Source: Okeania sp. KiyG1
GTDB lineage: Bacteria > Cyanobacteriota > Cyanobacteriia > Cyanobacteriales > Microcoleaceae
Assembly: GCF_014132355.1 (NCBI RefSeq)
Contig: NZ_BLZO01000026.1
Coordinates: 1-62,122, forward strand
Reading direction: 5' to 3'
DNA: 62,122 nt
The notes under the pieces are model-generated. The model was not told where the DNA came from, did not search any database, and worked only from the letters and a program-made list of their open reading frames with translations. A program made the position numbers and the translations under genes. Positions 44,177-61,489 of this stretch are shown in pieces; positions within the stretch are counted from its first letter, which is position 1, and every line of letters starts with the position of its first letter.

Positions 44177-46003
44177 ATGAATATATTAAGAAACTTACAA
44201 AATGGCAAATATACATTAGAACAAGAATTAGGAAGGGGAGGTTTTGGTATTACTATCAAGGCTACTCATAATTATTTAGGACAACCCGTAGTTATTAAGA
44301 CTCTCAATGAGTCTTTATGTCAACATCCTAACTTTGAGGAATTTCAAAAGAAGTTTCAGGATGAGGCAAGAAGACTCGCTTTGTGTGTCCATCCTAATAT
44401 TGTCAGAGTCAGTGATTTTTTTGTGGAAGATGGTCAACCTTACATGGTGATGGACTATATTCCGGGTAAAACTTTAGCAGAAGTTGTATCTGGTGGACAA
44501 CCTCTACCAGAGGCGATCGCCGTGCATTATATTCGTCAGGTAGGCAATGCTTTGATAGTAGTGCATCAAAATAATTTGCTCCACCGAGATGTTAAACCCC
44601 AAAATATTATGCTACGTCGGGATACTGAGGATGTCATCTTAATTGACTTTGGTATTGCCCGGGAATTTATTGCTGGTAAAACTCAGGTTCACACTAATTT
44701 GGTTTCTGATGGTTATGCTCCTCCAGAACAGTATTTTGTTCAAGGAAAACGTACCGCAGCAACAGATGTATATGGTTTAGCTGCGACTCTCTATACTTTA
44801 TTAACAGCACGACTGCCAATACCAGCGATGAGGAGATCCCAACAAGAAATGGCTACTCCTAGGGAATTACAGCCTCAACTTAGTCCTACTGTTAATCAAG
44901 CAGTGCTAAAAGGTATGGCAATGGATATTCAACACCGACCTGCAACTGTGGAGGAATGGCTAAAACAGTTATCAAATTCTAGCACAACTGATTTACATTC
45001 AACTATTCAGGTTGTACCTCAACAGCATCTAGGTCATAATGTGGGAAGTGGAAAAACTGCTACTACAAATATTCCTCCTACACAAAGACCTAAAGGAATA
45101 TTGATGTGGGGTATACCCGGAGCGATCGCTACTCTAACAGTAGGAACATTAGCAGCAATATTGTTAAATTCTCAGCCCCCTGACACACCACCTATAGTTC
45201 AAACTCCTGCACCATCTCCCACCGTTAGACCATCAGATATTGCTCAAACTCCTATATCAAAACCAACTGCACCTCCTACACCATCTCCAAAGTCTAATGA
45301 TACGGAGCAATTGCCCAATTTTACTCCTACCCCATCACCATCTCCACCTCCAACCCCCACTGCTGTTCCTCCTATAGTTAGACCAACCCCTACTCCTTCA
45401 CCTCCAGTAGAAAAACCTACACCCATACCACCTACGGTTGAGCCAACCCCAACTCCAACTCCAACTCCAATTCCAACTCCAACTCCAACTCCGGTGCAAC
45501 CTCCCGAAGATTCAGTTCCTGACATACCTATAGATTTAATATTGCCAGATAATATTCCTTCCGATCCTATTGATAATTCTACTATTAGGGATCTGCCGAT
45601 TATTCGTGGCTTACCTCCAGGCACCTTAGAAAGTAAAGTAATAGAATTATTGGGAAAACCTACAAAAGTTAAAGAGCGTGGCTATTGGCCGAATACTAGG
45701 GTTGCGATTTATGATTTACTTCCTAATAAAGTTAGTTTAGGTTATCTATATGATCGGGACTCTAGTCGCTTGCGACAAACTGAGTTGTCTGTAGCAGATG
45801 GTGTAGATGGCCTAATGGTAAGATTAGCTTTTGCAAATATGTTGAATTTGAGAATTACTCCAGAAATTGAACAAGGACTGCAAGATGTGCGAAACCGTAA
45901 AATTAATCGCTACGAGTTTAAAACAGGTAATCTTGAAGGTCTAATTGAGCGTAGTAGGAATGATCTTGTCTATATTGGTGTGTGGGAAGATGATTTACAT
46001 TAA
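44177..46003 (+). CDS. Transmembrane Ser/Thr protein kinase
   Basis: 608 residues. A Hanks-type kinase fills 1-270: Gly loop '[12 protein letters not shown]', Lys in 'VVIKTL' (about 42), catalytic 'HRDVKPQN' (about 136-143), 'LIDFGIA' (Mg Asp about 155) and 'GYAPPEQY' (activation loop end). All catalytic residues are present. One membrane helix lies near 310-332 ('[20 protein letters not shown]'). A 130-residue extracytoplasmic linker of Pro-Thr repeats ('[10 protein letters not shown]') follows, then a C-terminal domain of about 135 residues ('[20 protein letters not shown]', '[20 protein letters not shown]') with an SmpA/OmlA-like feel, found on several cyanobacterial kinases. The likely role is sensing outside the membrane and phosphorylating inside. 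Substrate unknown. Confidence 0.9.
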
Positions 46004-46207
46004 GAGGGAGTAGGGAGTAGGGGAGATTGAAGTAATTATTAGACATCTGGTAAAAATCAAAAATAAAATCAATTATTATCCATATATCATCAATTATTCC
46101 CCCCTGTTCTCTGTTCTCTGTTCCCTGTTCCCTGTTCCCTCTTTTCTAGAGATATCTAAATGACTCCTGAATTCTAAATTCTAAATTCTAAATTCTAAAT
46201 TCAAAAG

Positions 46208-46236
46208 TTGTCATAATGAAAATAATTGTGTAAGAT
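46208..46236 (+). promoter_or_regulatory. ssrA promoter candidate
   Basis: TTGTCA (46208-46213), 17 bp, TAAGAT (46231-46236). This predicts a start a few bases before the mature tmRNA 5' end at 46251. Confidence 0.6.
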
Positions 46237-46250
46237 AAAAACAATAACAC

Positions 46251-46642
46251 GGGGCATTAACGGTTTCGACAGGGTGGTGAAATCTACTTTGTGATTCAGG
46301 TCGAGAGTGAGTCTTCTCTCGCAAATACCGGGCTCAAAAAATAATAAGTGCAAACAACATTGTACCTTTTGCTCGTAAGCAAGTAGCTGTAGCTTAATTG
46401 CGAAAACACCTCTTATAGGTTCGAGCGTCTGTGATTTGACTCCGTTAAGGATTGCAGACTTAACCCCAACGGATGCACTGGTAAACTGCCTCTGGTCAGC
46501 TGCTGGTTAAGACTTTACTAGAGAATCCCGCCATCCGGGATAATGGATGGTCCCGGCTCTGAGGGTTAACAAGAGCTAAACCTGTGAATGAGCGAAGAGT
46601 AAATAGCCATTTTGGACATGGGTTCAACTCCCATATGCTCCA
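46251..46642 (+). ncRNA. ssrA: tmRNA (ssrA)
   Basis: The 5' GGGGCATTAACGG pairs with the 3' ATGCTCC (7-bp acceptor stem with one G-T), followed by discriminator A and no encoded CCA. The T-arm GGACATGGGTTCAACTCCCA is present. The tag reading frame GCA AAC AAC ... TAA (46350-46397) encodes ANNIVPFARKQVAVA, clearly of the cyanobacterial ANNIV type. With SmpB it rescues stalled ribosomes and tags peptides for proteolysis. It is one-piece, not permuted. Upstream is a promoter-like pair; downstream is an AAGGAAG heptamer tract (46652-46697). Confidence 0.95.
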
Positions 46643-47082
46643 TTTATTAAAGAAGGAAGAAGGAAGAAGGAAGAAGGAAGAAGGAAGAAGGAAGAAGGAA
46701 GAAGGGAAAATTATAGATGGATAGTTTTTCACACCTCACTCCATCTCTAAAAGCCTCAAATAATTTTAAGCATCGTGTAGACGGTGGGTTATTAAACCCG
46801 CCATAGAAAAGATAACAATTATCCTAAAGCCGTTTTTTGCCTTTTGAGCATAAAGCGGTTTTTTTAAAGGGCATTTGTAATATTATGTCCCTTGGAGCGC
46901 GTTTGTGTAAACCAAAGCATGAATATGTCATGACTTACGCATAACCACTAAGTAGGCAGAATAATTCAGGGACAAATATATCCGACTACTTCCTCACTAA
47001 ATTCTATCCTCCGCTCCTCCTAACTACTCCCCTACTTCTTAAAAAGACTTTTTCAGCAAACCCTACTAATCTAAAAAATAAA
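46643..47082. other. Gene-free stretch after ssrA
   Basis: Holds the AAGGAAG heptamers, a hairpin GGTGGGTT-ATTA-AACCCGCC (46783-46802), a direct repeat TAAAGC(C)G..TTTTTT (46825-46865) that may help end transcription, and a right end TTTTTCAGCAAACCCT (47048-47063) of the AGGGTTTGCTGA family. Confidence 0.45.
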
Positions 47083-47170
47083 AGCCCCTTTGTCTATATT
47101 GACCAAGGGACAAATAACTATCAGGGTGCATCTACTAAACGTAGTATAACACCCATAAGGGGCAAAACCC
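47083..47170 (-). ncRNA. Candidate small RNA, copy 1 of a tandem pair
   Basis: On the minus strand the sequence has a hairpin CTACGTTTAGTAG, then a strong stem GTCCCTTGGTC-AATATA-GACAAAGGGGC (10 of 11 pairs, including a G-T) running into TTTTATTTTTT. That fits a ~90-nt transcript with its own terminator. About 67 bases are identical in the second copy 173 bp away. No ORF. The strand is chosen by the T-run; identity unknown to me. Confidence 0.5.
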
Positions 47171-47255
47171 ACTATTTGAATAATTTAAAAAAAATATCAT
47201 AAATCTAATAAAACATAAGTTTCATTAAAGTAAGCACCCATATCATCAAAAAAAA

Positions 47256-47348
47256 AGCCCCTTTGTCTATATTGACCAAGGGACAAATAACTATCAGGGT
47301 GCATCTACTAAACGTAGTATAACGCCATTAAGGGGTTAAACCCCTCAT
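47256..47348 (-). ncRNA. Candidate small RNA, copy 2 of a tandem pair
   Basis: The same GCCCCTTTGTCTATATTGAC ... ACTAAACGTAGTATAAC block as copy 1. The terminator stem is followed by nine T on the minus strand, better than in copy 1. The 5' portion differs slightly (AACCCCTTAATGGCGTT) and forms AAGGGG/CCCCT pairing. Conservation of stems and T-run in both copies supports a structured RNA. Confidence 0.5.
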
Positions 47349-47662
47349 TTAAATATTTTTATTTATTATGATACATATAAGTATTAATAATATTTATTTA
47401 AAGTTTCTTTGCAAGAGTAAAAAAATAAAATGTACAGCTATATATTTTAATTAAAGTGTAACTTTAAAATAAGAATACATAGAACCCTTACAGTGCTGTT
47501 CAGATTGATAAACCACATCGTCATAACCAAAACCCTGTAAGGGCCAATGCCATTTGCTAACGTAGAGCTGCCGCTTTATATGTTGCGGAGCAAAACGCCC
47601 CTACTGACTTCTGACTTCGTTAATTTGATATCCTAAAAACCAAGAGTCAAACTATTTAAACT

Positions 47663-49687
47663 ATGCCTGTAGTAAACCCTCCCGCCATCATCAACTTTCC
47701 TCTAGCTGCTGTAGTCGGACAAGAGGCAATAAAATTCGCTCTATTGTTAGCTGCCGTCGATCCGGGATTAGGAGGAGTTGCCATTGCTGGCCGTCGTGGT
47801 ACTGCCAAATCGGTAATGGCCAGAGCGCTACATTCACTCCTACCTCCCATTGAAATTGTTCAAGGGTCCATTAGTAACTGTAATCCTAACTATCCCGAAG
47901 AATGGGACAACCAACTATTAGAGCAGTATGGCGACCCCACATCAGTAGAAATTCCCACTGAAGTTATACCCGCACCTTTTATTCAAGTTCCTCTAGGAGT
48001 AACAGAGGATAGATTATTAGGTTCGGTAGATGTAGAAAAATCAGTCAAACAAGGAGAAACAGTTTTTCAACCAGGATTATTAGCATCAGCTCACCGAGGA
48101 GTATTATATGTAGACGAAATTAATCTGCTGGACGACAATATTGCCAATTTATTACTCACAGTCTTAACAGAAGGACGAAATCAAATAGAACGAGAAGGCA
48201 TCAGCTTTCAACATCCTTGTAAACCTCTATTTATCGCTACCTATAATCCAGAAGAAGGCCCACTACGAGAACATTTGCTAGATAGAATAGCGATCGCCCT
48301 CTCAGCAGATATGATTTTAGGTTTAGACCAACGAGTGGAGGCAGTAGAACAAGCTTTAGCTTATGCTAAATCTCCCCAAGCTTTTCTCGAACAATATGCA
48401 GAAGATATAGATAATCTCAAAACTCAGATTCTTTTGGCCAGGGAATGGATAAAAGATGTCACCATTACTAACGAACAAATCCAATACTTAGTAGAAGAAG
48501 CAATTCGTGGAGGCGTCCAAGGACATAGGGCAGAACTTTTTGCCGTGCGAGTGGCCAAAGCATCAGCAGCACTGGATGGACGGACAACAATTAATGCGGA
48601 TGACTTGCGTCGGGCCGTGGAGTTAGTTATTGTGCCACGGGCAACAATAGTGCCAACTCCTCCAGAAGAGGAGCAACAACCGCCACCTCCACCGCCACCG
48701 CCACCAGAAGACCAGTCTCAAGATGAGCAAGAGGAGGATGAGGATGAGGATGAGGAAAACCCGGAACCTCCAGAGGAAGAAGAGGCTAGTATTCCGGAAG
48801 AATTTTTGTTTGACCCGGAGGGAGTGGTGCTGGATGATAGTGTGCTGATGTTTGCTCAAACAGCAAACCGTCAAGGTAAGTCTGGTAGTCGGAGTGTGAT
48901 TTTTTCTGAAGACCGGGGGCGTTATGTGAAGCCAATGTTGCCGAAGGGTCAGGTGCGACGTATTGCGGTTGATGCGACTTTGCGAGCTGCTGCTCCTTAT
49001 CAGAAGTCTCGCCGCGAACGTCAGCCAAATCGTCAAGTGATTGTGGAACCTATTGATATGCGGGCAAAGCGTTTGGCAAGAAAGGCAGGTGCTTTGGTGG
49101 TGTTTGTGGTTGATGCTTCGGGTTCGATGGCGTTAAATAGGATGCAGTCTGCGAAGGGAGCGGTGATGCAGTTGTTGACGGAAGCTTATCAGAGTCGCGA
49201 CCAGGTGTCGTTGATTCCTTTTCGGGGGGAACAAGCGGAGGTGTTGTTACCGCCTACTCGTTCGATAACTACAGCACGACGACGTTTGGAAAAGATGCCT
49301 TGTGGTGGGGGTTCGCCTTTGGCCCATGGTTTGACTCAGGCGGTGAGAGTGGGTGTGAATGCCAAGCAGTCTGGTGATGTTGGGCAGGTGGTAATTGTGG
49401 CTATTACGGATGGAAGGGGTAATATTCCGTTGGCGCGTTCGTTGGGTGAGCCAATATTGGATGATGAGAAACCGAATATTAAGGAGGAGTTGTTGGAAAT
49501 TGCTAGTAAAGTTCGGGGTTTGGGGATTCAGTTATTGATGATTGATACTGAGAATAAGTTTGTTTCGACTGGGTTTGCAAAGGAGTTGGCGAAGCAAGCG
49601 GGGGGTAAGTATTATCATTTACCCAAGGCGACAGAACAAGCGATCGCTGCTATGACTCAGAATGCTCTCAAGGATGCTATTGGTTAA
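47663..49687 (+). CDS. chlD: Magnesium chelatase subunit D
   Basis: 674 residues. The N-terminal AAA+ domain is related to ChlI: '[20 protein letters not shown]', Walker A-like 'GRRGTAKS' (43-50), Walker B '[11 protein letters not shown]' (about 146-156) and '[20 protein letters not shown]'. A Pro-rich then acidic linker follows (about 333-375, '[12 protein letters not shown]', '[16 protein letters not shown]'). The C-terminal VWA/integrin-I domain has MIDAS 'VVDASGSMA' (about 481) and 'ITDGRGN'. ChlD forms the double-hexamer motor with ChlI that drives Mg insertion by ChlH in chlorophyll synthesis. It is complete and intact. A GUN4-domain protein follows downstream on the same strand, and a ChlH paralogue lies 27 kb away. 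Confidence 0.95.
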
Positions 49688-49801
49688 AAGGGAGTGTGGG
49701 AGTGGGGGAGTGGGGGAGTAGGGGAGTAGGGGAGTAGGGGGGATGGAGGCAAATTTCAACCTTTTTCTCCTATTCTATCACACACCGTATCTTTACTTTT
49801 G

Positions 49802-50050
49802 TAGGACTTACGCACCTCAACGTATTTCGGTCATTGCGATCGATAGGAAAGCAATTTCGGCGTTGCTGAATTGAAGTATGAATGCGCGATTGTTTGGTTC
49901 TGCTCAAGCCCCCTAAATCCCACAAAATTGGGGGACTTTTAGAGTTTTATTCCCCCCAAAATTGGGGGGTTAGGGGGGCTTGCATCATACCCAGAATCAG
50001 CAACTCCGCAATTTCAAGTCCTAGTTTTTATACCTCATGCGTAAGTCCTG
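49802..50050. mobile_element. MITE of the CAGGACTTACGCA family, TTTTG duplication, carrying a nested element
   Basis: Ends are TAGGACTTACGCA and TGCGTAAGTCCTG. TTTTG occurs at 49797-49801 and 50051-50055. Another element (49859-50007) sits inside. Confidence 0.75.
49859..50007. mobile_element. MITE with GGCGTTGCTGAAT ends and 8-bp duplication GCAATTTC
   Basis: Ends are GGCGTTGCTGAATTG and AATCAGCAACTCC. There is a perfect 8-bp repeat GCAATTTC at 49851-49858 and 50008-50015. It is nested in 49802-50050, so it is the younger insertion. The interior has CCCCCTAAATCCC...GGGGG runs. Confidence 0.85.
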
Positions 50051-50321
50051 TTTTGTTGTTAAACAGCCTCTTAATTTCACTCCTGGTCATTTCAGTTATC
50101 AGTTGTGAAAAATCATGTATATACGTTTGAGAAAAGTTACCTACAAGGGTTAGAAAAAAGATTTATTTATTTGCTGGATATGTCTATACCTCTAATCTGA
50201 AATATTTACTGTCTATAATAATAAAAATTAAACCACTTCTATAACAATTAATAACTGATAACTAAAATGACCTACCTACATCCATAAATAGGAGAGAAAT
50301 TATGTATAATAATTATAATAT

Positions 50322-50416
50322 CAGGAATTACGCATTAGGTACGAAAAATTAGGATTTGAGATTGCTTCCGGTGTCGATCGCTTCGGAGGAAAATAGGTTG
50401 TACTGCGTAAGTCCTA
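50322..50416. mobile_element. MITE of the CAGGACTTACGCA family, AATAT duplication
   Basis: Ends are CAGGAATTACGCA and TGCGTAAGTCCTA. AATAT occurs at 50317-50321 and 50417-50421. It ends 28 bp before the next gene, so it contributes to its 5' leader. The rest of 49688-50444 is heptamer and repeat DNA without a gene. Confidence 0.7.
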
Positions 50417-50444
50417 AATATATATACAAGCTTTAAAAAAATTA

Positions 50445-53335
50445 ATGAATATTTTAGGTAAAAATTGCCATATTCCTACAGAAAATCTTCAACTGAGTGA
50501 ACGTATCACTATTACTCAAGGTGATATTATTTCTCAGCAAGTAGAGGCAATTGTTAATCCAACTAACAATAATCTCCGTAGTTACGGACTATGTACCAAA
50601 ATTCATCAAGCAGCAGGAGAAGCACTCACAAGTACAACCAGACAAATAGAATGGCTCGATACCAGTGAAGCTAAAATCACTAAAGGCTATCAACTCCAGG
50701 CTTCGTACATCATTCATACCTGTGCCCCAGTTTGGGATAAAACTAATAGTCAAACCTCTAGTCAACAATTAGCTCAATGTTATCGCAACTGTCTGGAGGT
50801 AGCAGCAGAAAATCAAATTCATAGTCTCGCTTTTCCCTGTATAAGCACAGGAATGCGTGGGTTTCCCAGAGATTGGGCGGCAAAAATAGCCATGACAGAA
50901 GTGGTGAAATTTTTGCAACACAACTCTCTCCCCTGGAAAATAATTTTTGTCTGTCGCGAGTCAAATGATTACGAAAAATATCAAGCAAACCTACCAACTG
51001 ATATAACTTCTCCCACTTCCTCCGAACAAACTAAAGCTCAAATTGCCAAAAGTTTAGTTGCTCAAATTGAATGTCAGCGTAGAGTCGCTATTATTGGCAG
51101 TACTTCCTTTTGGGGTGTGACTACGGAGGCAATATGCAAAGCTACTGGTAGACAACTGGCAACATTAGAAAATTTAGCTCTGTTGACGGGTGGAGTTATG
51201 GGTGTACCCGAAGCAGTATCCCTGAGTTTCTGGCGAGAGCGTCAACAACAAAATAAATTAGCCCCAGTTTACCATATTCAACCTGTTGGATTTGAACCGT
51301 GGGAATATGGTGTAAATTTGTATGCAGGCAAAACCTTATCTGAGCGCCGAGAAATTCTGGCTCAGATGGCATCAATATATATACTTATTGAAGGTGGGCC
51401 TGGAGCTAAACAGGAGGCTGAAATTGGAATGGCAGCAGGTGCGGTGGTGATTCCGGTGGGAGTAACGGGAGGTTTTGCTAAGGAACTTTATCAAAAAATG
51501 TCTCGCCCTTACTATATACCTTCCCAGTTGTGGCAAAAATTGGGGGAAGGCTATATTTCATCGGAAAATGTGGCAGAAGCGATCGCTCAAATTATTGAAA
51601 AAATTTGGCAACGTCCCAAAGATGTCATGTTTAAACCTGAAAAAAAATCTGTAACCGATCTAGAATTGCGATCGGCATTAGGGGTTAACTATAGGAAGTT
51701 GCGAGATTTATTAGCAGCATCTCAATGGCAAAAAGCAGACTGGGAAACTTTCCGCTTGTTTTGTGAAATTGCCCTGAGAGTAGAAGTACACAAAGGTGTT
51801 CAGGAAATTCGGGAAATTTTAAAGACAATTAACAAAAATACTCAAGTAGATAGATTTCGCGAACTCACTGACTTGCTGCAACATTACCAGACAATGTTTC
51901 ACAGTATTTATCAACAGGAGTTTCCCTCTTGTTCACTTTATGGTTATCTTCCTGGTTGTCTCAATTGGAAATTTATTAATAAACTGCCTTTACTAGATTT
52001 ACAAACAATTGATTTACTTTGGATGGTATATTCTGATGGGCATTTTGGTTTCAGCGTGCAGGAAAGAATTTGGCAAACATTATTTACTCAGGATGAGGCA
52101 AAGGTAGAGGAAAATTTTATCAGTTGTGTAGGTCGTGGTTATTCTCAAGGTGGAGATGCTTATCAGGAGGGTAAAAATTTTACCCTGAATTCTCCAGAGG
52201 GGTTGTTACCTTGGCTCAACTGGTATGATAGTGAGGGTAATCTTCATGGTATAGAATGTGATGGGAAGTTACGTTATTTGACTGGTGGGTTTGCTCAGAA
52301 GGGTTTAATTAGCAAGCTATGGCAAGAGAGAATTAGGAAAAGGTTGGAAGTGGGAGATAATGATTTTTCTAATTGCGTGCTAAGTGGTTTGAATTTGCAG
52401 GGTTTGAATTTTCAAGGTGCTAATCTTAGGGGTGCCGATCTACAGAATGCTAACTGTGAGGGAGCGTTGTTTGCTGAAGCGGATCTTAGAGGTGCTAATT
52501 TAGTAGGAGCGAAATTTTCAGTGGGAGCTTTGCAAGAGGCAGTTATTGACTGGAGTGATGCGTGCAGTCGTCAATGGTTGAAATCTTATACTATTCTAAT
52601 TGTTGATGATTCTATTATCGTTCGTAAACTTTTGAGTACGACTTTTAGGAATGCTGGTTATCAGGTAGAAATTGCTAGAAATGGAGTAGAAGCTTGGGAA
52701 AAATTACAAAATAATTTACAGGTTGACTTGATTTTATTAGATATAGAAATGCCGAGAATGGATGGTTATGAACTAACTAAAAAATCAGAAATGATTCTAA
52801 GTTGAAAAATATATTAATCGCTATTTTGACTAATCGTGCTATAGCTAGAAATAAGCAGAAAAAAATTCAGGAAGAATTTAATTATTGTTGTTATTTGAAC
52901 AAACCTTGTACTGAGGAAAAAGTGTTAGAAGCTGTCAATAATATTTTGAACAGATATGTGAAGCTTAAGACTATTCTAATTGTGGATGATTCTATTACTG
53001 TTCGCGAACTTTTGAGTATGACTTTTATCAAAGCTGGCTATCAAGTAGAAGTAGCAAAAGATGGGTTAGAAGCTTGGGAAAAATTACAAAATAATTTACA
53101 GGTTGATTTGATTTCATTAAATATGGAAATGCCAAGAATGGGCGGTCAAGAGTTAGCTTTGAAAATTAGACAAGATTCTAAGTTACAAAATTTACCAATA
53201 ATGTTTATGACTTCTCGTGGTGCATCCAGAATGGGCGTACCAATTGAAAAATTAGTTAACAATTGTGCTTATATGACAAAACCTTATGTTGAAGAAAAGG
53301 TATTAGATACTGTAAAAAGTTTATTGAAGAAATAA
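50445..53335 (+). CDS. Macro-SLOG-GUN4-pentapeptide-REC-REC protein (frameshift near 52781)
   Basis: After adding one A to the six-A run at 52779-52784 the reading unit is about 963 residues. Modules in order: (1) Macro/ADP-ribose domain, about 20-175 ('ITQGDIISQQVEAIVNPTNN', 'AFPCISTGMRGFP'). (2) SLOG/LOG-like Rossmann domain, about 205-375 ('RVAIIGSTSFWG', 'LLTGGVMGVPEAV', 'ILIEGGPGAKQEAEIGMAAG'). (3) GUN4, about 400-610 ('GVNYRKLRDLLAASQWQKAD', 'LLDLQTIDLLWMVYSDGHFG', 'FSVQERIWQTL'), the tetrapyrrole-binding ChlH-activating fold. (4) Pentapeptide repeats, about 635-690 ('LNFQGANLRGADLQNANCEG'). (5) REC1 with acceptor Asp in 'LLDIEMPRMDG'. (6) REC2 with Asn there ('SLNMEMPRMGG'), probably not phosphorylated. 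No membrane segment. It follows chlD on the same strand. Function unknown; linking nucleotide/ADP-ribose sensing to tetrapyrrole control is inference. Confidence 0.85.
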
Positions 53336-53455
53336 GAAGAAGGAGTCAGGAGTCAGTAGGGGCGAATCGCGATTCGCCCGTACAGGAGTCAGGAGGCGAG
53401 GAAGGAAGAGAACTGAGAAATATTTGGCAATGACGCTCAGGTGGAACTGTTTTTA

Positions 53456-53624
53456 TACCAAATTTAAAAAAGAATGTTACAAATAAACTGGCTAGTAAAT
53501 AATTAATAATTAATAATTAATAATTAATAACTAACAATTAATAATTTACCGCGCCACCTACCACCTACCACCTAACACCTAACACCTAGAAAGTTATTTG
53601 TAGCAAATATTTATCAATTTGGTA
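53456..53624. mobile_element. MITE of the TACCAATTTGA family, 169 bp, TTA duplication
   Basis: Ends are TACCAAATTTAAAAAAGAAT and ATTTATCAATTTGGTA. TTA occurs at 53453-53455 and 53625-53627. The interior is AATTAAT and CACCTAC heptamer-like tracts. Another left end (TACCAATTTTCAGAAGG) begins at 53628. The rest of 53336-53814 is CTCCCCACTCC-type repeats leading right up to the protease start. Confidence 0.85.
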
Positions 53625-53814
53625 TTATACCAATTTTCAGAAGGAGTTAGTAGTTATATAGAATTTAGTTAATATAGTATATGTTGATAATTTCTTAAAT
53701 TACTTCAATCTCCCCCGCTCCCTACTCCCCTACTCCCCTACTCCCCGCTCCCTACTCCCCACTCCCCCACTCCCCCACTCCCCACTCCCCACTCCCTACT
53801 CCCTATTCCCTATT

Positions 53815-55311
53815 ATGAAACTTTTACTAAATTATTTCACAATTATAATCAGCTTATTTTCCCTGCAAAACTTAGCTTTAGCAGAAACAAATACTCTAGA
53901 AAATCAACCTCAAAAACCTCCGTCAGCCAAAATATTTCCTACTAATTTTCAGCCAGAAACACCATATCAAAAATTAGCAGAAGCAGACCGACTTTATTTA
54001 GCAGGAGAAAAAACAGCAGCAGAAAAACTTTACCGAGAAGTAAAAGAACCATTTTCTGAAGATATTGAAGCTAAAATTAATCGCCCTCAAGCAATTTATG
54101 AACCTACAGAATTACCAGTAACAGCTCAAGTTTATTGGCGACAAGTACAAGAAGGATTAGCTAAAAATCTAGAGACTCAAATATTTATAGCTTTAGAACT
54201 ATTAGTCAAAGAATATCCTGAATTTATTCCAGCTCATATTAAATTTGCAGAAGTATTAAAAGCTGATGAACAAACAGAATTATCCTTAGAAATATTACAT
54301 CAAGCAGCTAGTTTATATCCCAACGAACCAGAATTAATGAAAGCTCAAATTACTGCCCTAGCAAATGAAAAAAAATGGTTAGAAGCAACTTTATCTGCCC
54401 AACAATTTGCTTTGATGAATCCCGAACATTCCCAAGTAGATGAATTTAATCAATTAGCAGAAACCCATAGAAAAAAATTTCAATCCCAGCTCAAATCACA
54501 ATTAAGAGGAAATACAATTGCTAATGTTGTTACTGGCGCTTTAGGAGTAGCTCTTACTGGCAATCCATTTGCTGCTCTGAATGCTGTTCAAACAACAGCA
54601 TTAATGCTCCGAGGAGAATCAAAAATTGGCAAAAGTTTAGCAAAATATGCCACTAAAAGTTTACCTATGGTTGAAGATGAAACAATTCTTGAATATGTTA
54701 ATACTATAGGAAAAAAACTTGCAAAAATGACTGGTAGAAACGACTTTGAATATCAGTTTTATATAATCAATGATGAAAATCTTAATGCTTTTGCTTTACC
54801 AGGTGGGCAAATATTTATTAATTTAGGAGCAATAGTTAAAACAAATTCTGAAGCAGAATTAGCAGGTTTACTTGCTCATGAATTAGCTCATACTGTATTA
54901 TCTCATGGATTTCAGTTAATGTCTGAAGGTAATTTAATTAGTAGTGTTACTCAATATATTCCTTATGCGGGCGGTGTAGTTAGTAATTTAATTGTACTTA
55001 ACTATAGTCGAGAAATGGAACGTCAAGCAGATGTATTAGGAACACGAATTTTAGTATCAGCAGATTATGCAGCAGATGGGGTAAGAAATTTGATGAAGAC
55101 TCTGAATAAAGACACAGAAGATAGAGGTATTATTGCTTGGTTATCCACTCATCCAGAGACGGCAGAAAGAGTACGTTATTTAGAAGAGTTAATTGTTAAT
55201 AGTGGTTATAATCGTTATGCTTACGAAGGAGTAGTATATCATGGCAAAATTAAGGCAAAAGCTAAAGCATTATTAGTAGAAAAGAAAAAGGATTTTCAGA
55301 AATATAGATAA
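53815..55311 (+). CDS. M48-family metalloprotease with TPR-like N-terminal region (BepA/Loi-type)
   Basis: 498 residues with a signal peptide ('LLNYFTIIISLFSLQNLALA', cleavage near residue 23). Residues about 50-220 form helical TPR-like repeats ('YQKLAEADRLYLAGEKTAAE', 'FIPAHIKFAEVLKADEQTEL'). The peptidase domain has zinc motif 'LLAHELAHTVLSH' (His355, Glu356, His359), third ligand region 'REMERQADVLG' (about 400-410) and 'LSTHPETAERVRYL' at the active-site end. A hydrophobic stretch (about 240-275) precedes the catalytic domain. The arrangement suggests periplasmic or envelope quality control, as for BepA/YfgC, although there the TPR follows the protease. It is intact and stands alone. Its promoter must lie within repeat DNA. 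Confidence 0.9.
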   Translation: MKLLLNYFTIIISLFSLQNLALAETNTLENQPQKPPSAKIFPTNFQPETPYQKLAEADRLYLAGEKTAAEKLYREVKEPFSEDIEAKINRPQAIYEPTELPVTAQVYWRQVQEGLAKNLETQIFIALELLVKEYPEFIPAHIKFAEVLKADEQTELSLEILHQAASLYPNEPELMKAQITALANEKKWLEATLSAQQFALMNPEHSQVDEFNQLAETHRKKFQSQLKSQLRGNTIANVVTGALGVALTGNPFAALNAVQTTALMLRGESKIGKSLAKYATKSLPMVEDETILEYVNTIGKKLAKMTGRNDFEYQFYIINDENLNAFALPGGQIFINLGAIVKTNSEAELAGLLAHELAHTVLSHGFQLMSEGNLISSVTQYIPYAGGVVSNLIVLNYSREMERQADVLGTRILVSADYAADGVRNLMKTLNKDTEDRGIIAWLSTHPETAERVRYLEELIVNSGYNRYAYEGVVYHGKIKAKAKALLVEKKKDFQKYR

Positions 55312-55414
55312 GGAATAAGGAATAGGGAATAGTAAAATTTATCAAAATAATATGGATCTAAAACCCTGCCTTTTAAGGCGCAATATTTTTGGAGAGTTGC
55401 TCAAATCCCTGTTA

Positions 55415-55610
55415 TACCAATTTGAAAAAAGAATGTTACGAATAGTAAGAGCCATAAAAAATTTTGACAGGAGATGTTTCTTTGACAAAAAAGATAATTT
55501 ACGCCCTAAAAAATGGTATTAAAGCCATTCCCATACGACTCCTGACTCCTGACTCCTAACTCCTAAGAAATACCTTAGATATTTGTAGCAAACATTGTAT
55601 CAATTTGGTA
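55415..55610. mobile_element. MITE of the TACCAATTTGA family, 196 bp, TTA duplication
   Basis: Ends are TACCAATTTGAAAAAAGAAT and TGTATCAATTTGGTA. TTA occurs at 55412-55414 and 55611-55613. The interior includes AAAATGGTATTAAAGCC and a GACTCCT heptamer array, and is shared with the copy in the DUF29 gene. Bases 55611-55986 hold further heptamer tracts (TGACTTC, ATTCCCT at 55930-55980) and no gene. Confidence 0.85.
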
Positions 55611-55986
55611 TTACAAAAATAACTTCTGACTTCTGACTTGTGACTTCTGACTTCGTTAAGGTAGTCCTGCTCGCCTAATAGTACACAGGAAAAAGGAATA
55701 CTTGGCATGGGAGCAAGATGCTCCCACTGTTCTCGTAATATTCTTTTTTCATGCATGGTATTATCCACAAATTATCAATTATTTCTCTCTGTTCCCTGCT
55801 CCCTATTCCCCCTTTTCTGGAGATATTTATATATAGCTATAGCAAAGAATGGGTTGGTTAGGACATAGACTGGTAATAAACTGTAAGACAGGGAAATATT
55901 TTTCCCACTTTTGCCTGTTGCCTGTTGCCTGTTGCCTATTCCCTATTCCCTATTCCCTATTCCCTATTCCCTATTCCCTAATATAA

Positions 55987-56385
55987 TTAATTTGACTTAC
56001 CATCACTACCTAAATATTCTCGGTAGGAGCAAATTTTATCTCCTCTCACATCAAAAGAAACTGCTACTCGATTTTTATAAGCTTTTCCCCACATTGGGCC
56101 TTCATCCCGAAATTCAAATACTACTGTTGTTTTGTTGCTAGTAATATTGTCTAAAGAAGTAATTAAAAGTCCTTCACTATAAGCTTCAGAAACATACTGA
56201 AAAAATTCTCTAGCGCGGTCTTTTCCTTTGTTTAAACCATGAAATTTTCCTACGGGAAACCAAAAGGTAAAGTCATCAGTAAGCATATCCAAAAATGCTT
56301 CCCATTCTCCAGTTGCTAAACCATGAGTAAATTTATCAAATGCTTTTTTAGCAACGGTAATTGTATTTATTTCTGTTTGAGTCAT
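55987..56385 (-). CDS. NTF2-like/SnoaL-type protein
   Basis: 132 residues: 'AKKAFDKFTHGLATGEWEAF', 'LDMLTDDFTFWFPVGKFHGL', 'RAREFFQYVSEAY', 'TTVVFEFRDEGPMWGKAY' and 'VRGDKICSYREYL'. This is the cone-shaped NTF2-like fold (nuclear transport factor 2 family), one domain, full length. Members include polyketide cyclases, isomerases and small-molecule binders. The few polar residues in the pocket do not decide a reaction. Isolated gene, with ATG 56385 followed directly by the conserved helix. Confidence 0.8.
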   Translation of the reverse strand: MTQTEINTITVAKKAFDKFTHGLATGEWEAFLDMLTDDFTFWFPVGKFHGLNKGKDRAREFFQYVSEAYSEGLLITSLDNITSNKTTVVFEFRDEGPMWGKAYKNRVAVSFDVRGDKICSYREYLGSDGKSN

Positions 56386-56489
56386 TTTTACAAATTCATT
56401 TAGAGGTTGTTTCTAAACAAAAGATTAACATAGGGTATGTGACGGTATGCTTATATAATGTATCTTTAGAATACCAAAAATTATTCTTA

Positions 56490-56699
56490 TACCAATTTGA
56501 TAAGTGTTTGTTACAAATAGTAGGGACGTTGCATAAGGGCGTCCGTACGAAAGAAGGAAGAAGGAAGAAGGAAAAAGAAGGAAATATTTTAAAAAGGTAA
56601 AAACGATATAAATAACTATCTAAAATCCACGATGGTCACTATTTTTAAGAATATCTGATAGAGTGGCACTTTTCATAGCATTCTTTTTTCAAATTGGTA
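56490..56699. mobile_element. MITE of the TACCAATTTGA family, 210 bp, TTA duplication
   Basis: Nearly identical to 41549-41759 in ends and interior (GTTGCATAAGGGCGTCCGTA, TAACTATCTAAAAT). TTA occurs at 56487-56489 and 56700-56702. Confidence 0.85.
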
Positions 56700-56774
56700 T
56701 TACACAATATTTTTAGCAATTATTTGTATGAAGTAAAGATATCTTGTTCGTTATTTCCCTAGGATATACGGAGA

Positions 56775-57075
56775 TTTTACCGAATAATTAATAATTAATA
56801 ATTAATAATTAATAATTAAATAATTCGCGCCTTGAAGCCTCCCCTTTTAAGGGGAAAAAAGCGGTCGTTTTGCTTCGCAACATGTAAAGCGTAGCTTCCC
56901 GAAGGGTGGGATGGCGTTTTGCTCCGCAACATATAAAGCGGAGCGGCTCTGTCAAGAGCGGGTCCCCTCGCCATATCCAATCGACCAAGAGAAGAAATAA
57001 TATTTCCTGATATTCAATCCTCTCGGTTTTAACCAGAGGTAATTATCCATTATCCATTATCCATTATCCATTAAT
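56775..57075. repeat. TTACCGAA-type palindromic element with heptamer tracts
   Basis: Starts TTTACCGAATAATTAATAAT and includes GCCTCCCCTTTTAAGGGG, GGGTGGGATGGCGTTTTGCT and CGACCAAGAGAAGAAATAAT. It ends in ATTATCC heptamers. Related pieces are at 3955-4066, 21538-21690, 34035-34240, 43310-43432, 59546-59700 and 60006-60150. Confidence 0.6.
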
Positions 57076-57091
57076 GAAACAATCTAATTTT

Positions 57092-57616
57092 TTAAAATAC
57101 TTTATAAATAACTGCCCCTGTTTCGGGGTGATTTTCCATTTCCAATAAACCCTCTTTATATAAACTTTTTAACAGTTCTTTCATTTCTGATACTGTTTTA
57201 TTTGTAGCAATAATACAATCTGCTATTGAAATTCCATCTGAATTTTCCTTAGCTAGTTGAAGAATAATTTGTGTATCTGATTTTGGGGGATTAGTCTCTA
57301 ACATTCTCACTATTTGTTCTTGGGGAAAGTAGTTATATATATCCCCAGAATCTAATTGTTTCTTGAAATTTTTGAGATTTTTCTGTTCTACCATTCCAGG
57401 AATAAAGAAGACATCAAAAAATTGACCAATCCCTAATAAACCCGCAGTAGCTAACCATAAACTACCAGTTACATATTTTCCAGAATAAAATCTATGTAAC
57501 CCACAAATACCTAAGAAACCAGAACACCATAAAAGGTAAGCCATACCTGTATTTTTAGTTTCATATATTTTGGGATTATTAATAATTTTAGATTTGTTCA
57601 TTTTTTTACTCACCAT
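57092..57616 (-). CDS. TM2-domain protein with C-terminal winged-helix-like region
   Basis: 174 residues. The TM2 motif (two helices joined by a short turn) is clear: 'AYLLWCSGFLGICGLHRFYS' then 'GKYVTGSLWLATAGLLGIGQ' and 'FFDVFFIPGMVEQKN'. Residues about 110-174 resemble a small winged helix ('DGISIADCIIATNKTVSEMK', 'LLKSLYKEGLLEMENHPETG'). This combination recurs in cyanobacteria and its function is unknown. ATG 57601 (MNKSK) has GGTGAG seven bases upstream and may be the true start; ATG 57616 adds five residues. Confidence 0.8.
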   Translation of the reverse strand: MVSKKMNKSKIINNPKIYETKNTGMAYLLWCSGFLGICGLHRFYSGKYVTGSLWLATAGLLGIGQFFDVFFIPGMVEQKNLKNFKKQLDSGDIYNYFPQEQIVRMLETNPPKSDTQIILQLAKENSDGISIADCIIATNKTVSEMKELLKSLYKEGLLEMENHPETGAVIYKVF

Positions 57617-57651
57617 CTAAATAAACAACCTTATACAAACTTTATATCTGA

Positions 57652-58172
57652 CTCAATTACAGAATTCTTACACTATATAAAACTTCACCCAATTAGAAGA
57701 ATAAACCTGAAATTTTTATTTCAGGACTTACGCACGGACACTATATTGAGTGAGGGCGCCATTCGGAGCTTTGCGCTAGCAAATGCCATTTCCTAAGGTC
57801 ATGCTCCGCAAACGCCCCTACATATGGCGTTTTCAAGGTGAATTTGCGTAAGTCCTGATTTTTTTCAATTACAGAATTCTCACACTATAGAACCCCTGAG
57901 TGGATCTTTGGACGCGGTATGTGCTTTTGGCTTCCCTCCTCAGTCTGAGCGAGCAAGTGGAAATTCAGGAATGAGAATGGGGAGAAAGCAGATGAGACCC
58001 CGCATCGCCCAATAGCAAACCTGGTAGCTTCCCTTGCAGGTAGAAAAATACTCTCATCTCCCCATCTCCCTATCTCCCCATCCCCCCATCCCCCATCTCC
58101 TTTTTAAATAGATACCAAATGGGTTCTATAGAAAACTTCACCGAATTAGAAGAATAAACCTGAAATTTTTAT
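57652..58172. repeat. 70-bp direct repeat, one copy opened by a GAACCC-ended insert
   Basis: 57652-57720 (ATTACAGAATTCTTACACTA through ACCTGAAATTTTTATT) recurs in two halves at about 57868-57893 and 58124-58172. The halves are separated by about 230 bp bounded by CTATAGAACCC and GGGTTCTATAG, an inserted element with TATA target. Between the two copies lies the CAGGACTTACGCA element at 57722-57857. Confidence 0.6.
57722..57857. mobile_element. MITE of the CAGGACTTACGCA family, 136 bp
   Basis: Ends are CAGGACTTACGCA and TGCGTAAGTCCTG, a perfect 13-bp inverted repeat. The interior has GTGAGGGCGCCATTCGGAGC and CGCCCCTACATATGGCG. The target duplication is unclear in the T-rich flanks. Confidence 0.75.
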
Positions 58173-58291
58173 CTTTTTCTTTTGGGTTTAATACCCAGCC
58201 GTCAATTACGGTGTTTACAATTGGTTGGGGTTTGACTCCCCATCCACTTCTTCCTTCTTCCTTCTTCCTTCTTCCTTCTTCCTTCTTCAAT

Positions 58292-59377
58292 TTAAATATA
58301 ACGAACTAAACTAGAATCTATATCTTCTATCTTAGCACAGCCACTTAATGCCATTGCCACATCTAATTCATCACACAATAACTCCAACAAATGATGTACC
58401 CCTGCTTTTCCATTCACTGCTAGTCCCCACAAAACCGGACGCCCAATTAAAACAGCTTTTGCTCCTAATGCTAATGCTTTGAGAATATCTGTACCCCTGC
58501 GTATACCTCCATCCATCAGCACATCAACTTGATGTCCCACTGCTGCAACTACTTCTGGGAGAGCATCAAGAGTGGCGATCGCTCCATCTAACTGCCTACC
58601 TCCATGATTAGAAACAATAATTCCTTTTGCCCCATGTTCCACAGCTCGAATGGCATCATCTCCCCGCAAAATTCCTTTAACTACTACAGGTAATGATGTT
58701 AATGACTGCAACCAGTCTATGTCTCCCCAGGTAAGAGCTGGATCTAGTTGATTAGCAAAATAAGTAAATAACCCAGACTCATTTTCTGTTTGAGGAATTT
58801 CTAAATTTGCCATCGACGTTAAATTAGCTAATTCCATGTCAGATGGTAAAGTAAACTTATTTCGGCGATCGCGTTCTCTTCTCCCCAAAATTGGCGCATC
58901 AACTGTCAAACACAATGCTTGATAACCTGCAGCTTCAGCTCTTTCTACTAAAGCACGAGTTAGAGCGCGGTCGCGATGTACATAGAGTTGAAACCAAAAA
59001 TTTTTTGCCACATTTGAAGCTAGTGCCACATCTTCTAAACTTTTAGTGGACATGGTACTTAATATCATTATTGTACCTAAATCTGCTGCGACTCTTGCTG
59101 TTGCTAATTCTCCTTCTGGATATGCTAAACATTGAAAGGCCATAGGGGCAATTAAAATTGGCATTTTAATATACTGTCCCAGGATTTTTGTAGTTAAATT
59201 TCGCTGGCTAACATTTACTAACATTCGAGGTCGTAATTTATATCGTTCATAAGCAGTACGGTTATCTTGCAAAGTAATTTCATCCCATGCGCCACTAGCA
59301 TAATAATCTAGTGCCATTTGAGATAAATTTTGTGTTGCCAAAGATTCATACTCGAAAATATTAATTGGTTTGTTCAT
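58292..59377 (-). CDS. FMN-dependent alpha-hydroxyacid oxidase (lactate/glycolate oxidase type)
   Basis: 361 residues in the TIM-barrel flavoprotein family: 'IFEYESLATQNLSQMALDYY', 'GAWDEITLQDNR', FMN contacts 'PILIAPMAFQCLAYPEGELA', 'STMSTKSLEDVA' and 'FQLYVHRDRA', active-site His258 in 'VSNHGGRQLDGA', and phosphate-binding 'DGGIRRGTDILKALALGAKA' and 'IGRPVLWGLA'. It oxidises L-2-hydroxyacids with O2. In N2-fixing cyanobacteria related enzymes act as L-lactate oxidases, in photorespiration-oriented lineages as glycolate oxidase. The substrate cannot be fixed from sequence alone here. Complete, single gene. Start ATG 59377 is next to a TCAGTTA heptamer array. Confidence 0.9.
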   Translation of the reverse strand: MNKPINIFEYESLATQNLSQMALDYYASGAWDEITLQDNRTAYERYKLRPRMLVNVSQRNLTTKILGQYIKMPILIAPMAFQCLAYPEGELATARVAADLGTIMILSTMSTKSLEDVALASNVAKNFWFQLYVHRDRALTRALVERAEAAGYQALCLTVDAPILGRRERDRRNKFTLPSDMELANLTSMANLEIPQTENESGLFTYFANQLDPALTWGDIDWLQSLTSLPVVVKGILRGDDAIRAVEHGAKGIIVSNHGGRQLDGAIATLDALPEVVAAVGHQVDVLMDGGIRRGTDILKALALGAKAVLIGRPVLWGLAVNGKAGVHHLLELLCDELDVAMALSGCAKIEDIDSSLVRYI

Positions 59378-60243
59378 TATTGTTGGTAATTGGTCATTTC
59401 AGTTATCAGTTATCAGTTATCAGTTATCAGTTATCAGTTATCAGTTAGCCTCCTCCGGAGGAACTGCGTTAACAGTACTTCTGTAATAAGGAGGCTTGAA
59501 ATTTGGAATATTCTCTTTTCTCTTACTCCCTTCCCGCTAGAAGATTACCGAATAATTAATAATTAATAATTAATAATTAAATAATTCGCGCCTTGAAGCC
59601 TCCCCTTTTAAGGGGAAATAAAGAAATAATATTTCCTTATATTCAATCAAGGACGGTTTTAACCAGAGGTAATTATCAATTATCCATTATCCATTATCAA
59701 TTAATGAACTAGCAAAATTAGGCTATAAACTATATGCTGCAAGGATTTACTGATTAGAATTTTGCACCTGGAAGGGAGTAGTCGAGAGATGGCGAGTTTT
59801 CTTCACCATCTCTCGACCGCTTTTTATCTCCTTAAAAGCAGAGGCTTTAGACCAGAATTTTTCGGTAATGATTAAATGATAATTTTCAACAGTTTAAATA
59901 GTGCTTGTTAGTTTGATGCTGTAGAGGATAAAAATTTGTCTAGCATCTAATAAAAAAAAGGCTGTTTTGCAGAAATTGAACGCGAATACTCACTACTAAA
60001 TTTCGTCATTTCAGTTATCAGTTAGCCTCCTATAATCGGAACTAAGAAAGTCATTACCTCTTACTTCAACTAGAGGTTTTAAATCTAGAATATTCTCTTT
60101 TTTATCCCCTTAAAAGGGGAGATTATTGACCATAATTTTTCGGTCATAACTAATTATCAAAATATTATAAATTTTGGATAAAAATTAATTTGTATTGTAT
60201 CATAAATATTGTTTTATTTAGAGTGTATTGCTTATTCAACATT
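59378..60243. other. Gene-free stretch of heptamer and palindromic repeats
   Basis: TCAGTTA heptamers (59397-59448), two or three TTACCGAA-type elements (59450-59545; 59546-59700; 60006-60150) and a hairpin GATGGCGAG...CCATCTCTCGAC (59780-59818). No gene. Confidence 0.5.
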
Positions 60244-60660
60244 ATGGTCAATTTGAATACTAACGATCGTCTGAAGCGAGATATACTAACAAATTCTCAA
60301 GTAATTGCTGTTGTGGGTCATTCCGATAAACCAATTCGTACTAGCTATCAAATAGCTAGATTTTTACGAGAGGTAGGTTATAAAGTTTATCCTGTTAATC
60401 CAGTAGTTAAAGAAATTGATGGTCAACCTAGTTATCCTGCTTTAACAGATATTCCTGAACCTGTGGATATTGTTAATGTTTTCCGCAGTTCCGAATATTT
60501 ACCAGAAATAGTAGAATCAGCGATCGCTATCCATGCCAAAACTATTTGGACTCAGCTAGACGTTAAAGATTGGCAGTCAGCAAATAAAGCATTAGATGCA
60601 GGTTTAAATTTAGCAATGGATGTTTGTATTAAAGTTGAGTATTTGCGACTTCTTGGCTAA
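60244..60660 (+). CDS. CoA-binding domain protein (YccU-like)
   Basis: The start is placed at ATG 60244 (MVNLNTNDRLKRDILTNSQV), where homology begins; the frame runs up to a TTG at 60190 through unrelated sequence. 138 residues with a Rossmann fold: 'VIAVVGHSDKPIRTSYQIAR', 'YKVYPVNPVVKEIDGQPSYP', 'PVDIVNVFRSSEYLPEIV' and 'MDVCIKVEYLRLL'. This matches CoA_binding_2 proteins, single-domain relatives of succinyl-CoA synthetase alpha. They bind CoA or acyl-CoA; a specific reaction is not known. Complete. Confidence 0.85.
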   Translation: MVNLNTNDRLKRDILTNSQVIAVVGHSDKPIRTSYQIARFLREVGYKVYPVNPVVKEIDGQPSYPALTDIPEPVDIVNVFRSSEYLPEIVESAIAIHAKTIWTQLDVKDWQSANKALDAGLNLAMDVCIKVEYLRLLG

Positions 60661-60763
60661 TAATTTGCCGATCTTTATCTAGTGCAAGATGGCGAAAATA
60701 ACTGGTTACAAAATCCTCAAACAATTACAAATCAAAAATGATTGACTTTTAAATGCATGACTT

Positions 60764-61489
60764 TTAACTTCCGCGTAGCGGCATTAATCTTTTGCCCAGA
60801 AAAAGTAAAAATCCATAGGCAACTAAATTTTCACCAATTAGTTCAAACAATTCTTCAAAAGCAATGCGAACTTTTTCAATAAAACTCATTAAAAAATCTT
60901 GTGTAAATAATAAACTGAACAAAGGTTGAGCAATATCTTTAAAAATTTCAGCTCCAAATCCTCCAATAGCAAAAATCAACATTCCTAGTAGTGCTAAAAA
61001 AGTTTCTCGACGATAGGAACGCCACAAGAATTTTAAGTCTGAGTAAAAGACAATCAAAGGCATAATAAAAATAACTATATATATTTGCAGCCAACCACGT
61101 TCCCCCAACCAAGGAAGCCAGTTTTTTAGTTGTAGATGAATTTTAAATACTGCATCAATAGCACCATAAATTAGGAGCAGAGCAAAGGTTAATTTAAACC
61201 AATGAGAAGGGGGAATTTGAGAATGCCATTCTTTGAAAAGTAATATCAAAGGTATCAATCCAATTATCAATAAATTTAATGCTTGTAAGAGAGAAGAAAT
61301 AGTCATTTGACCGTTCATGTCAAATAGGGGATATGATTTACCACTAACCAAGATACTGCCAAGATAAATTAGAACTAATAAAAATTCAAAAATAATGAAG
61401 AAAACCAGCAGAAAATTTAGAGTTTTTTGGTATGGCAATATAGCTTTCCCTAGGCTACGCCAACTCTGAAAATTGTTAAGGTCGAGCAT
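60764..61489 (-). CDS. Hypothetical multispan membrane protein
   Basis: 241 residues with about six hydrophobic segments ('LNFLLVFFIIFEFLLVLIYL', 'LLQALNLLIIGLIPLILLF', 'FKLTFALLLIYGAIDAVF', 'IYIVIFIMPLIVFY', 'LLGMLIFAIGGFGAEIF', 'NLVAYGFLLFLGKRL'). An amphipathic acidic loop 'KVRIAFEELFELIGE' precedes the last helix. No family recognised. The final MPLRGS and stop overlap a repeat-like CCGCGTAGCGGCATT, so the C-terminus may have been trimmed by repeat insertion. Confidence 0.65.
   Translation of the reverse strand: MLDLNNFQSWRSLGKAILPYQKTLNFLLVFFIIFEFLLVLIYLGSILVSGKSYPLFDMNGQMTISSLLQALNLLIIGLIPLILLFKEWHSQIPPSHWFKLTFALLLIYGAIDAVFKIHLQLKNWLPWLGERGWLQIYIVIFIMPLIVFYSDLKFLWRSYRRETFLALLGMLIFAIGGFGAEIFKDIAQPLFSLLFTQDFLMSFIEKVRIAFEELFELIGENLVAYGFLLFLGKRLMPLRGS

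Follow-up and report, generated by a model that had tools for sequence, protein, structure and literature searches.

A cyanobacterial fusion of macro, SLOG, GUN4, pentapeptide and receiver domains appears to integrate stress or defence signals rather than to regulate chlorophyll

In the 62,122-nucleotide stretch of Okeania sp. KiyG1 DNA that we analysed (the window), one gene joins a macro domain, a SLOG domain, a GUN4 domain, pentapeptide repeats and receiver (REC) domains, and represents a new architecture built from known parts (Table 1). The architecture is conserved in related genomes and is under purifying selection, whereas the residues linked to porphyrin binding in GUN4, the catalytic Asp of the macro domain and the phospho-acceptor Asp of the second receiver are lost. 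The protein appears to serve the integration of stress or defence signals, not the regulation of chlorophyll. More specifically, we tentatively propose, at somewhat less than even chances, that it integrates signals in response to ADP-ribose or nucleotides, has its receivers as output and belongs to the stress/conflict type of cyanobacterial proteins.

Table 1. Positions in the window of the parts of the fusion gene and of two neighbouring genes.
Feature	Position	Strand	Basis or remark
First frame of the fusion gene, 786 residues: macro-SLOG-GUN4-pentapeptide-REC1 (cut)	50445..52805	+	
Macro core, residues 37-149	50553..50891	+	Pfam
Predicted SLOG, LDcluster4/STALD type, residues 213-386	51081..51602	+	Pfam
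GUN4, part one	51672..51824	+	
Insertion within GUN4, about 45-55 residues, missing from G286	51825..51959	+	
GUN4, part two; N592 aligns with N211 of SynGUN4 and D595 with R214	51960..52223	+	
Pentapeptide repeats, residues 641-692	52365..52520	+	Pfam
REC1, part one; phospho-acceptor Asp is residue 766	52593..52784	+	
Frame break in REC1, approximate site	52785..52805	+	1-base length difference from three single-frame orthologs
Second frame: remainder of REC1, up to about 52960, then REC2	52802..53335	+	
REC2; Asn replaces the phospho-acceptor Asp (LISLNMEMP)	52973..53314	+	
chlD-like gene	47663..49687	+	Pfam Mg_chelatase, AAA lid, VWA; name chlD from the earlier note
M48 peptidase gene downstream; the second genus has it as a neighbour too	53815..55311	+	

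All Pfam matches of the first-frame protein exceed the Pfam cut-offs, including those of the macro, SLOG and GUN4 domains that a profile scan was expected to detect. The macro domain (residues 37-149) gave an E of 2.6e-32 and 111.7 bits against a cut-off of 22, GUN4 an E of 2.8e-24 and 86.3 bits against a cut-off of 29.2, with the match in two stretches, and the pentapeptide repeats an E of 3.3e-14. SLOG cluster4 (residues 213-348, E 1.9e-7) and STALD (residues 297-386, E 2.7e-7) scored 31.2 bits against a cut-off of 26.3 and 30.7 bits against a cut-off of 24, respectively, and with E values of about 1e-7 the assignment of this part to SLOG is modest. REC1 is partial in the first frame (residues 717-780, E 5.3e-16, profile positions 1-63 of 111), and the second-frame protein gave a further REC match (E 1.4e-19). 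These matches, together with the orthologs described below, bear out the set and order of domains that the earlier note had read from the window, and its coordinates for the gene fit both frames. Its description of the gene as one reading unit has to be corrected, considering that two frames are present in the window and that the break lies inside REC1, whereas a single open frame is found in the orthologous loci L120, L121 and L122. The REC1 and REC2 motifs lie 380 nt apart in the window, against 381 nt in each of these three loci, and this spacing, one base shorter, places the frame break inside the REC1 of the window copy. The one-base break could be a sequencing error.

The macro-SLOG part was found in 7 of 62 family genomes: four of the six of the window's genus (the window's own genome, G000, and G041, G042 and G043) and three of the seven of a second genus (G056, G057 and G058). 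The search for homologues with the same domain order thus returned single-frame orthologs in three same-genus genomes, whose proteins of 963, 979 and 978 residues read macro-SLOG-GUN4-pentapeptide-REC-REC, and forms with one REC in the other genus, where the G057 and G058 proteins have 845 residues; in the G056 copy the macro part is broken. A distant genome (G286) encodes an 890-residue SLOG-GUN4-pentapeptide-REC protein without macro, which, like the orthologs, gave a SLOG profile match. Since the same domain order occurs in independent assemblies, the possibility that separate genes were joined by an assembly error is ruled out.

The values of dN/dS (Nei-Gojobori) were 0.04-0.35 for the macro, SLOG, GUN4 and pentapeptide parts (seven pairs each) and higher, 0.23-0.61, for the receivers. 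The window copy itself, compared with its three same-genus orthologs, gave 0.04-0.35 over the four N-terminal domains. This range speaks against the view that the gene of this strain is a decaying remnant with little current function, as does the single frame of the three orthologs, from which the window copy differs by the one base mentioned above. The frame break inside REC1 favours decay, and so does the state of a second macro-GUN4 gene, coding for an STK-GUN4-GUN4-macro protein, which is intact in G043 (907 residues; L128:5303-8026), frame-broken in the window's genome (C151, L126), in G056 and in G058, and reduced to the macro tail in G040 and G041. On balance, we regard decay of the fusion gene as unlikely.

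A SLOG profile search across the order (389 genomes) matched 16 genomes, namely the seven with the fusion, G286, G001, G603, G337 and five distant ones. The traces in G603 and G337 look like remnants and were excluded from the architecture count. G001 carries a lone 205-residue SLOG, 21 bp from a divergent NUDIX hydrolase gene (L129:1235-2434). Three of the five weaker distant matches were scanned (L147, L148 and L149) and all are TIR-SLOG proteins; the others are in G391 and G673. With the STALD profile, seven matches were obtained in 60 relatives, every one of them the fusion. A single-sequence SLOG query of 386 phylum genomes had found six and was superseded by the profile search. The whole-protein scan of genome contigs matched receiver-domain patterns and zero orthologs, a local tblastn of residues 1-705 against these 80 receiver-pattern loci found nothing, and 59 pattern matches of the SLOG in viral contigs included no relatives. 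The simplest history is that a SLOG-GUN4-pentapeptide-REC core gained the macro domain and later the second REC. The GUN4 tree, in which branches are long and 17 of the 25 inner ones stay open, does not prove this history and could not tell whether the GUN4 domains of G286 and the window have a common origin.

The SLOG profile found its top PDB matches in the SLOG of BcThsA (7uxs, E 3e-4) and in TM1055 (1rcu, E 1.2e-3). The ThsA SLOG recognises a variant cyclic ADP-ribose made by TIR, according to the available text of PMC9503650, and its STALD pocket residues are S288, F357, R371 and E403 (PMC7272460, available text). Residues S219, R301 and E324 of the fusion are invariant in all six aligned SLOGs, and HMMER puts ThsA Glu403 on the invariant E324; the counterparts of S288 and R371 were placed by order alone, and that of the aromatic F357 is unsure. 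The single-sequence AlphaFold2 model of the SLOG was of low quality (pLDDT 51.5) and matched no known fold at E <=0.001, so that neither the model nor the fold search is used here. PADLOC matches to PD-T4-6 and ThsA were taken as shared domains, not as whole systems.

The spacing of R301 and E324 resembles that of the Arg and the PGGxGTxxE Glu which we take to be those of LOG enzymes, and this fit suggests a different role, in which the SLOG would be an enzyme (a nucleotide N-glycosidase or phosphoribohydrolase) and the protein would clear or process ADP-ribose derivatives instead of sensing them. Such processing is how viral SLOG-macro fusions are read in the available text of PMC9503650, and the NUDIX gene beside the lone SLOG of G001 points the same way. 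However, the PGG motif is altered to EGGPGAKQE in the fusion, the Pfam and PDB matches (LDcluster4/STALD and ThsA) include a sensor, the macro domain is without its catalytic Asp, and the REC and pentapeptide parts suggest signalling, so that we consider an enzymatic SLOG improbable.

The closest PDB relatives of the macro domain are MACROD2 and MACROD1. Loop 2 (STGxxGFP) is mostly retained, as is the GDI Asp, the glycines of loop 1 are gone, and Cys50 occupies the position of the Asp that, within the GGVDxAIH loop, is catalytic in MacroD. This Cys is present in all seven copies of the fusion, window included, and the macro domain is therefore probably a reader; a reader or altered-ligand domain is likelier, on residue grounds, than a hydrolase. 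Macro domains linked to GUN4 are not the only ones without the Asp. Among 21 other macro loci shown, 16 retain GGGGVDGAIH, and the remaining five comprise the GUN4-linked L119 and L154, the vWA-macro L118 and L155 and the TerB-macro L109; the two vWA-macro proteins are also without the Asp. The latter three loci are in other cyanobacteria (L109:1447-3357, L118:214-1977 and L155:1477-3237).

The phospho-acceptor Asp is present in REC1 (LLDIEMP), while REC2 has Asn at this position in the window, G041, G042 and G043. The double receiver of the earlier note is therefore correct for the genus, but its second member has this Asn and the second genus has one REC. No histidine kinase match was found in the eight neighbouring ORFs of the window that were scanned (44177-61489), which include STK, chlD-like AAA/VWA, M48, SnoaL, TM2, FMN_dh and CoA-binding proteins and were also considered for the gene set of a vWA-MoxR (VMAP-type) ternary conflict system. 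For the receivers of conflict proteins, a role as nucleotide-responsive switches that operate in the absence of a histidine kinase has been proposed (PMC8195603, available text). The downstream M48 gene is common to the window and L123, with a fragment in L124.

The GUN4 domain of the fusion, a partial sequence match to 1y6i, was aligned with GUN4 of Synechocystis. The Phe at the F196 position is absent, Asp stands at the R214 position and N211 is kept. F196 and R214 matter for porphyrin binding in Synechocystis, and mutation of the same residues in Arabidopsis GUN4 lowers porphyrin binding (available text of PMC8967248 for both), whereas the Asn of Chlamydomonas GUN4 that matches N211 is required for bilin and not for porphyrin binding (PMC10156173, available text). 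The window's genome has 27 GUN4 stretches, which we counted as 26 domains in 25 genes, and a separate gene (C118) encodes a canonical GUN4 in which both F196 and R214 are conserved. Among the 26 aligned domains, that of C118 is the only one with Phe in the F196 column and the only one whose N-x-L-R loop is complete. In the R214 column the other domains show Arg in two cases (one with Leu) and gaps in five, and because of these gaps the alignment of the loop is not firm.

These residues bear on whether the domain might still be a tetrapyrrole sensor, perhaps for bilin or heme, that allosterically gates a nucleotide-signalling or conflict protein. Sensing of this kind was proposed for cyanobacterial GUN4 fusions in general in 2020 (PMC7159879, available text), and retention of N211 in both the window protein and G057 is consistent with it, given the bilin role of the matching Asn (PMC10156173, available text). 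That a single domain out of 26 combines the F196-column Phe with the whole loop, while the window domain keeps the Asn only, makes us judge a sensor quite unlikely here, and with one domain in 26 of this genome keeping both residues in our alignment the general proposal that fused GUN4 is a tetrapyrrole sensor is itself called into question.

The earlier note placed the gene after chlD and suggested that it could be coupled to chlorophyll synthesis. The order is correct in the window, but a gap of 757 bp separates the two genes. chlD adjoins the fusion in all three other same-genus loci (L120, L121 and L122), with gaps of 757-1859 bp across loci. It is not beside the gene in L123, L124, L125, L146 and L129, of which L123, L125 and L129 are shorter than 9 kb, so that a chlD may lie beyond their ends; L124 of G057 and L146 of G286 span 20 kb and show no chlD near the gene. 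An operon with chlD is therefore rejected on the basis of gap and synteny, and the chlD-like neighbour is probably not functionally linked to the fusion. We consider it very improbable that GUN4 allows the fusion to link ADP-ribose or nucleotide signals and phosphorelay input with Mg chelatase and chlorophyll synthesis, since, against the GUN4 profile match, the retained N211 position and the chlD-like gene upstream in one genus, both porphyrin residues are changed, a canonical GUN4 is present elsewhere in the genome, chlD is distant or absent, and it is M48, not chlD, that is a neighbour in the second genus too. What survives of the earlier proposal is the apparent link to nucleotide or ADP-ribose signalling, with the SLOG closest in the PDB to ThsA and the macro domain MacroD-like.

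The company of GUN4 elsewhere in the genome was also considered. Of 20 other GUN4 genes scanned, four code for GUN4 alone and 16 carry further domains: STK in five, caspase in three, trypsin-like in three (one under the Pfam cut-off), and a double TIR, NB-ARC/AAA, NACHT, KAP and DUF1822 in one each. Fusions of GUN4 to kinases, caspases, trypsin and TIR are reported, with the tetrapyrrole sensor proposal, in the available text of PMC7159879, and the set found here resembles what accompanies the proteins of conflict and regulated death in multicellular cyanobacteria according to the parts available of PMC7159879 and PMC8195603. A gene set at L127:3573-13679 comprises an iSTAND gene, an AAA gene and a gene for a 2377-residue protein with five FGE-sulfatase domains, a vWA (CoxE) match below the cut-off and a macro domain that retains the Asp; these genes resemble the ternary conflict systems reported in PMC7159879 (available text), here with a macro domain.

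Linkage of macro and GUN4 is rare. The macro profile matched in 69 of 386 phylum genomes, and the linkage occurs in at least two of them (G000 and G284). In the window's genome this profile detected two macro domains (C26 and C151), both GUN4-linked, that of C151 lying in the next frame, and a second macro profile added a 39-residue fragment at C154. Further loci of the STK-GUN4-GUN4-macro gene, a decaying kinase-macro family, are L132, L223, L222 and L225. An STK-GUN4-macro protein is encoded at L154 in Oscillatoriaceae cyanobacterium M33_DOE_052, with the same DNA in G284, and has LC at the MacroD VD, as in the window protein.

The genome has four TIR_2 matches, two of them within one TIR-TIR-GUN4 protein of 616 residues (L172:2000-3850, C91). 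The double TIR-GUN4 of G043 has 476 residues (L219:3812-5242), and an additional TIR gene adjoins it. Among 62 genomes, a full-length ortholog of the TIR-TIR-GUN4 protein is found in G043 only, that is, in just one other of the seven genomes that bear the fusion; a fixed partnership is thus not supported, and neither is a role of this protein as a dedicated TIR signal maker for the fusion.

As for the signal integrator that we prefer, its ligands, the reader role of the macro domain, its output and its physiological setting are what we infer from the domains and residues described above. The protein would presumably be located in the cytosol. The STALD-like SLOG would bind a nucleotide of the ADP-ribose kind, and the macro domain would recognise ADP-ribose, or a group that carries it, and leave it uncleaved. 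Ligand binding might then alter, by means of the GUN4-like module and the pentapeptide rod, how the C-terminal receiver or receivers are presented to partners; REC1 may contribute a phosphorylation input, and REC2 would be a pseudo-receiver. For the GUN4-like module, service as an adaptor, either structural or for the binding of partners, or a change of ligand is more likely than porphyrin sensing. The setting would probably be a stress or conflict network that uses the many other GUN4 fusions of the same cyanobacterium. As a more speculative extension, to which we give little chance, GUN4-like modules without a porphyrin site could be the shared adaptor of a cyanobacterial ADP-ribose second-messenger network, in which TIR-TIR-GUN4 makes the signals, macro-SLOG-GUN4-REC reads them and relays them to receiver-domain partners, and STK-GUN4-macro answers by phosphorylation. 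If true, such a network would connect NAD metabolism to two-component-like signalling in bacteria.

The earlier note knew of no described protein joining these domains, and we did not find the exact combination in the available main text of PMC7159879, PMC8195603, PMC9503650 and PMC2176072; nor does the same text hold the pairing that makes the fusion of interest, a putative ADP-ribose-type sensor pair (macro and STALD-like SLOG) with receivers in one chain. With the canonical GUN4 that activates Mg chelatase, the fusion shares the GUN4 fold, but its domain is without the porphyrin residues, contains an insertion and is part of a multidomain chain. Other cyanobacterial GUN4 fusions, many of them in one genome, likewise combine a GUN4 without the canonical porphyrin residues with a signalling module; macro-SLOG-GUN4-REC is not among the combinations named in the available text of PMC7159879 and PMC2176072. 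The STK-GUN4-GUN4-macro (L128) and STK-GUN4-macro (L154) proteins also join a macro domain that has lost the catalytic Asp to GUN4, but with a kinase instead of SLOG and REC and in the reverse order. The SLOG of ThsA (Thoeris) and those of TIR-SLOG proteins are of the same STALD/LDcluster4 type, with the Glu403 position kept in the fusion and the Ser and Arg plausibly so, whereas the fusion is without Sir2 or TIR and has macro, GUN4 and REC instead. Finally, the viral macro-SLOG fusions, as far as the available text of PMC9503650 describes them, also have both domains in one protein within the NAD-ADPr network, from which the present fusion differs in being bacterial, in the macro domain without the catalytic Asp and in the addition of GUN4, pentapeptide repeats and REC.
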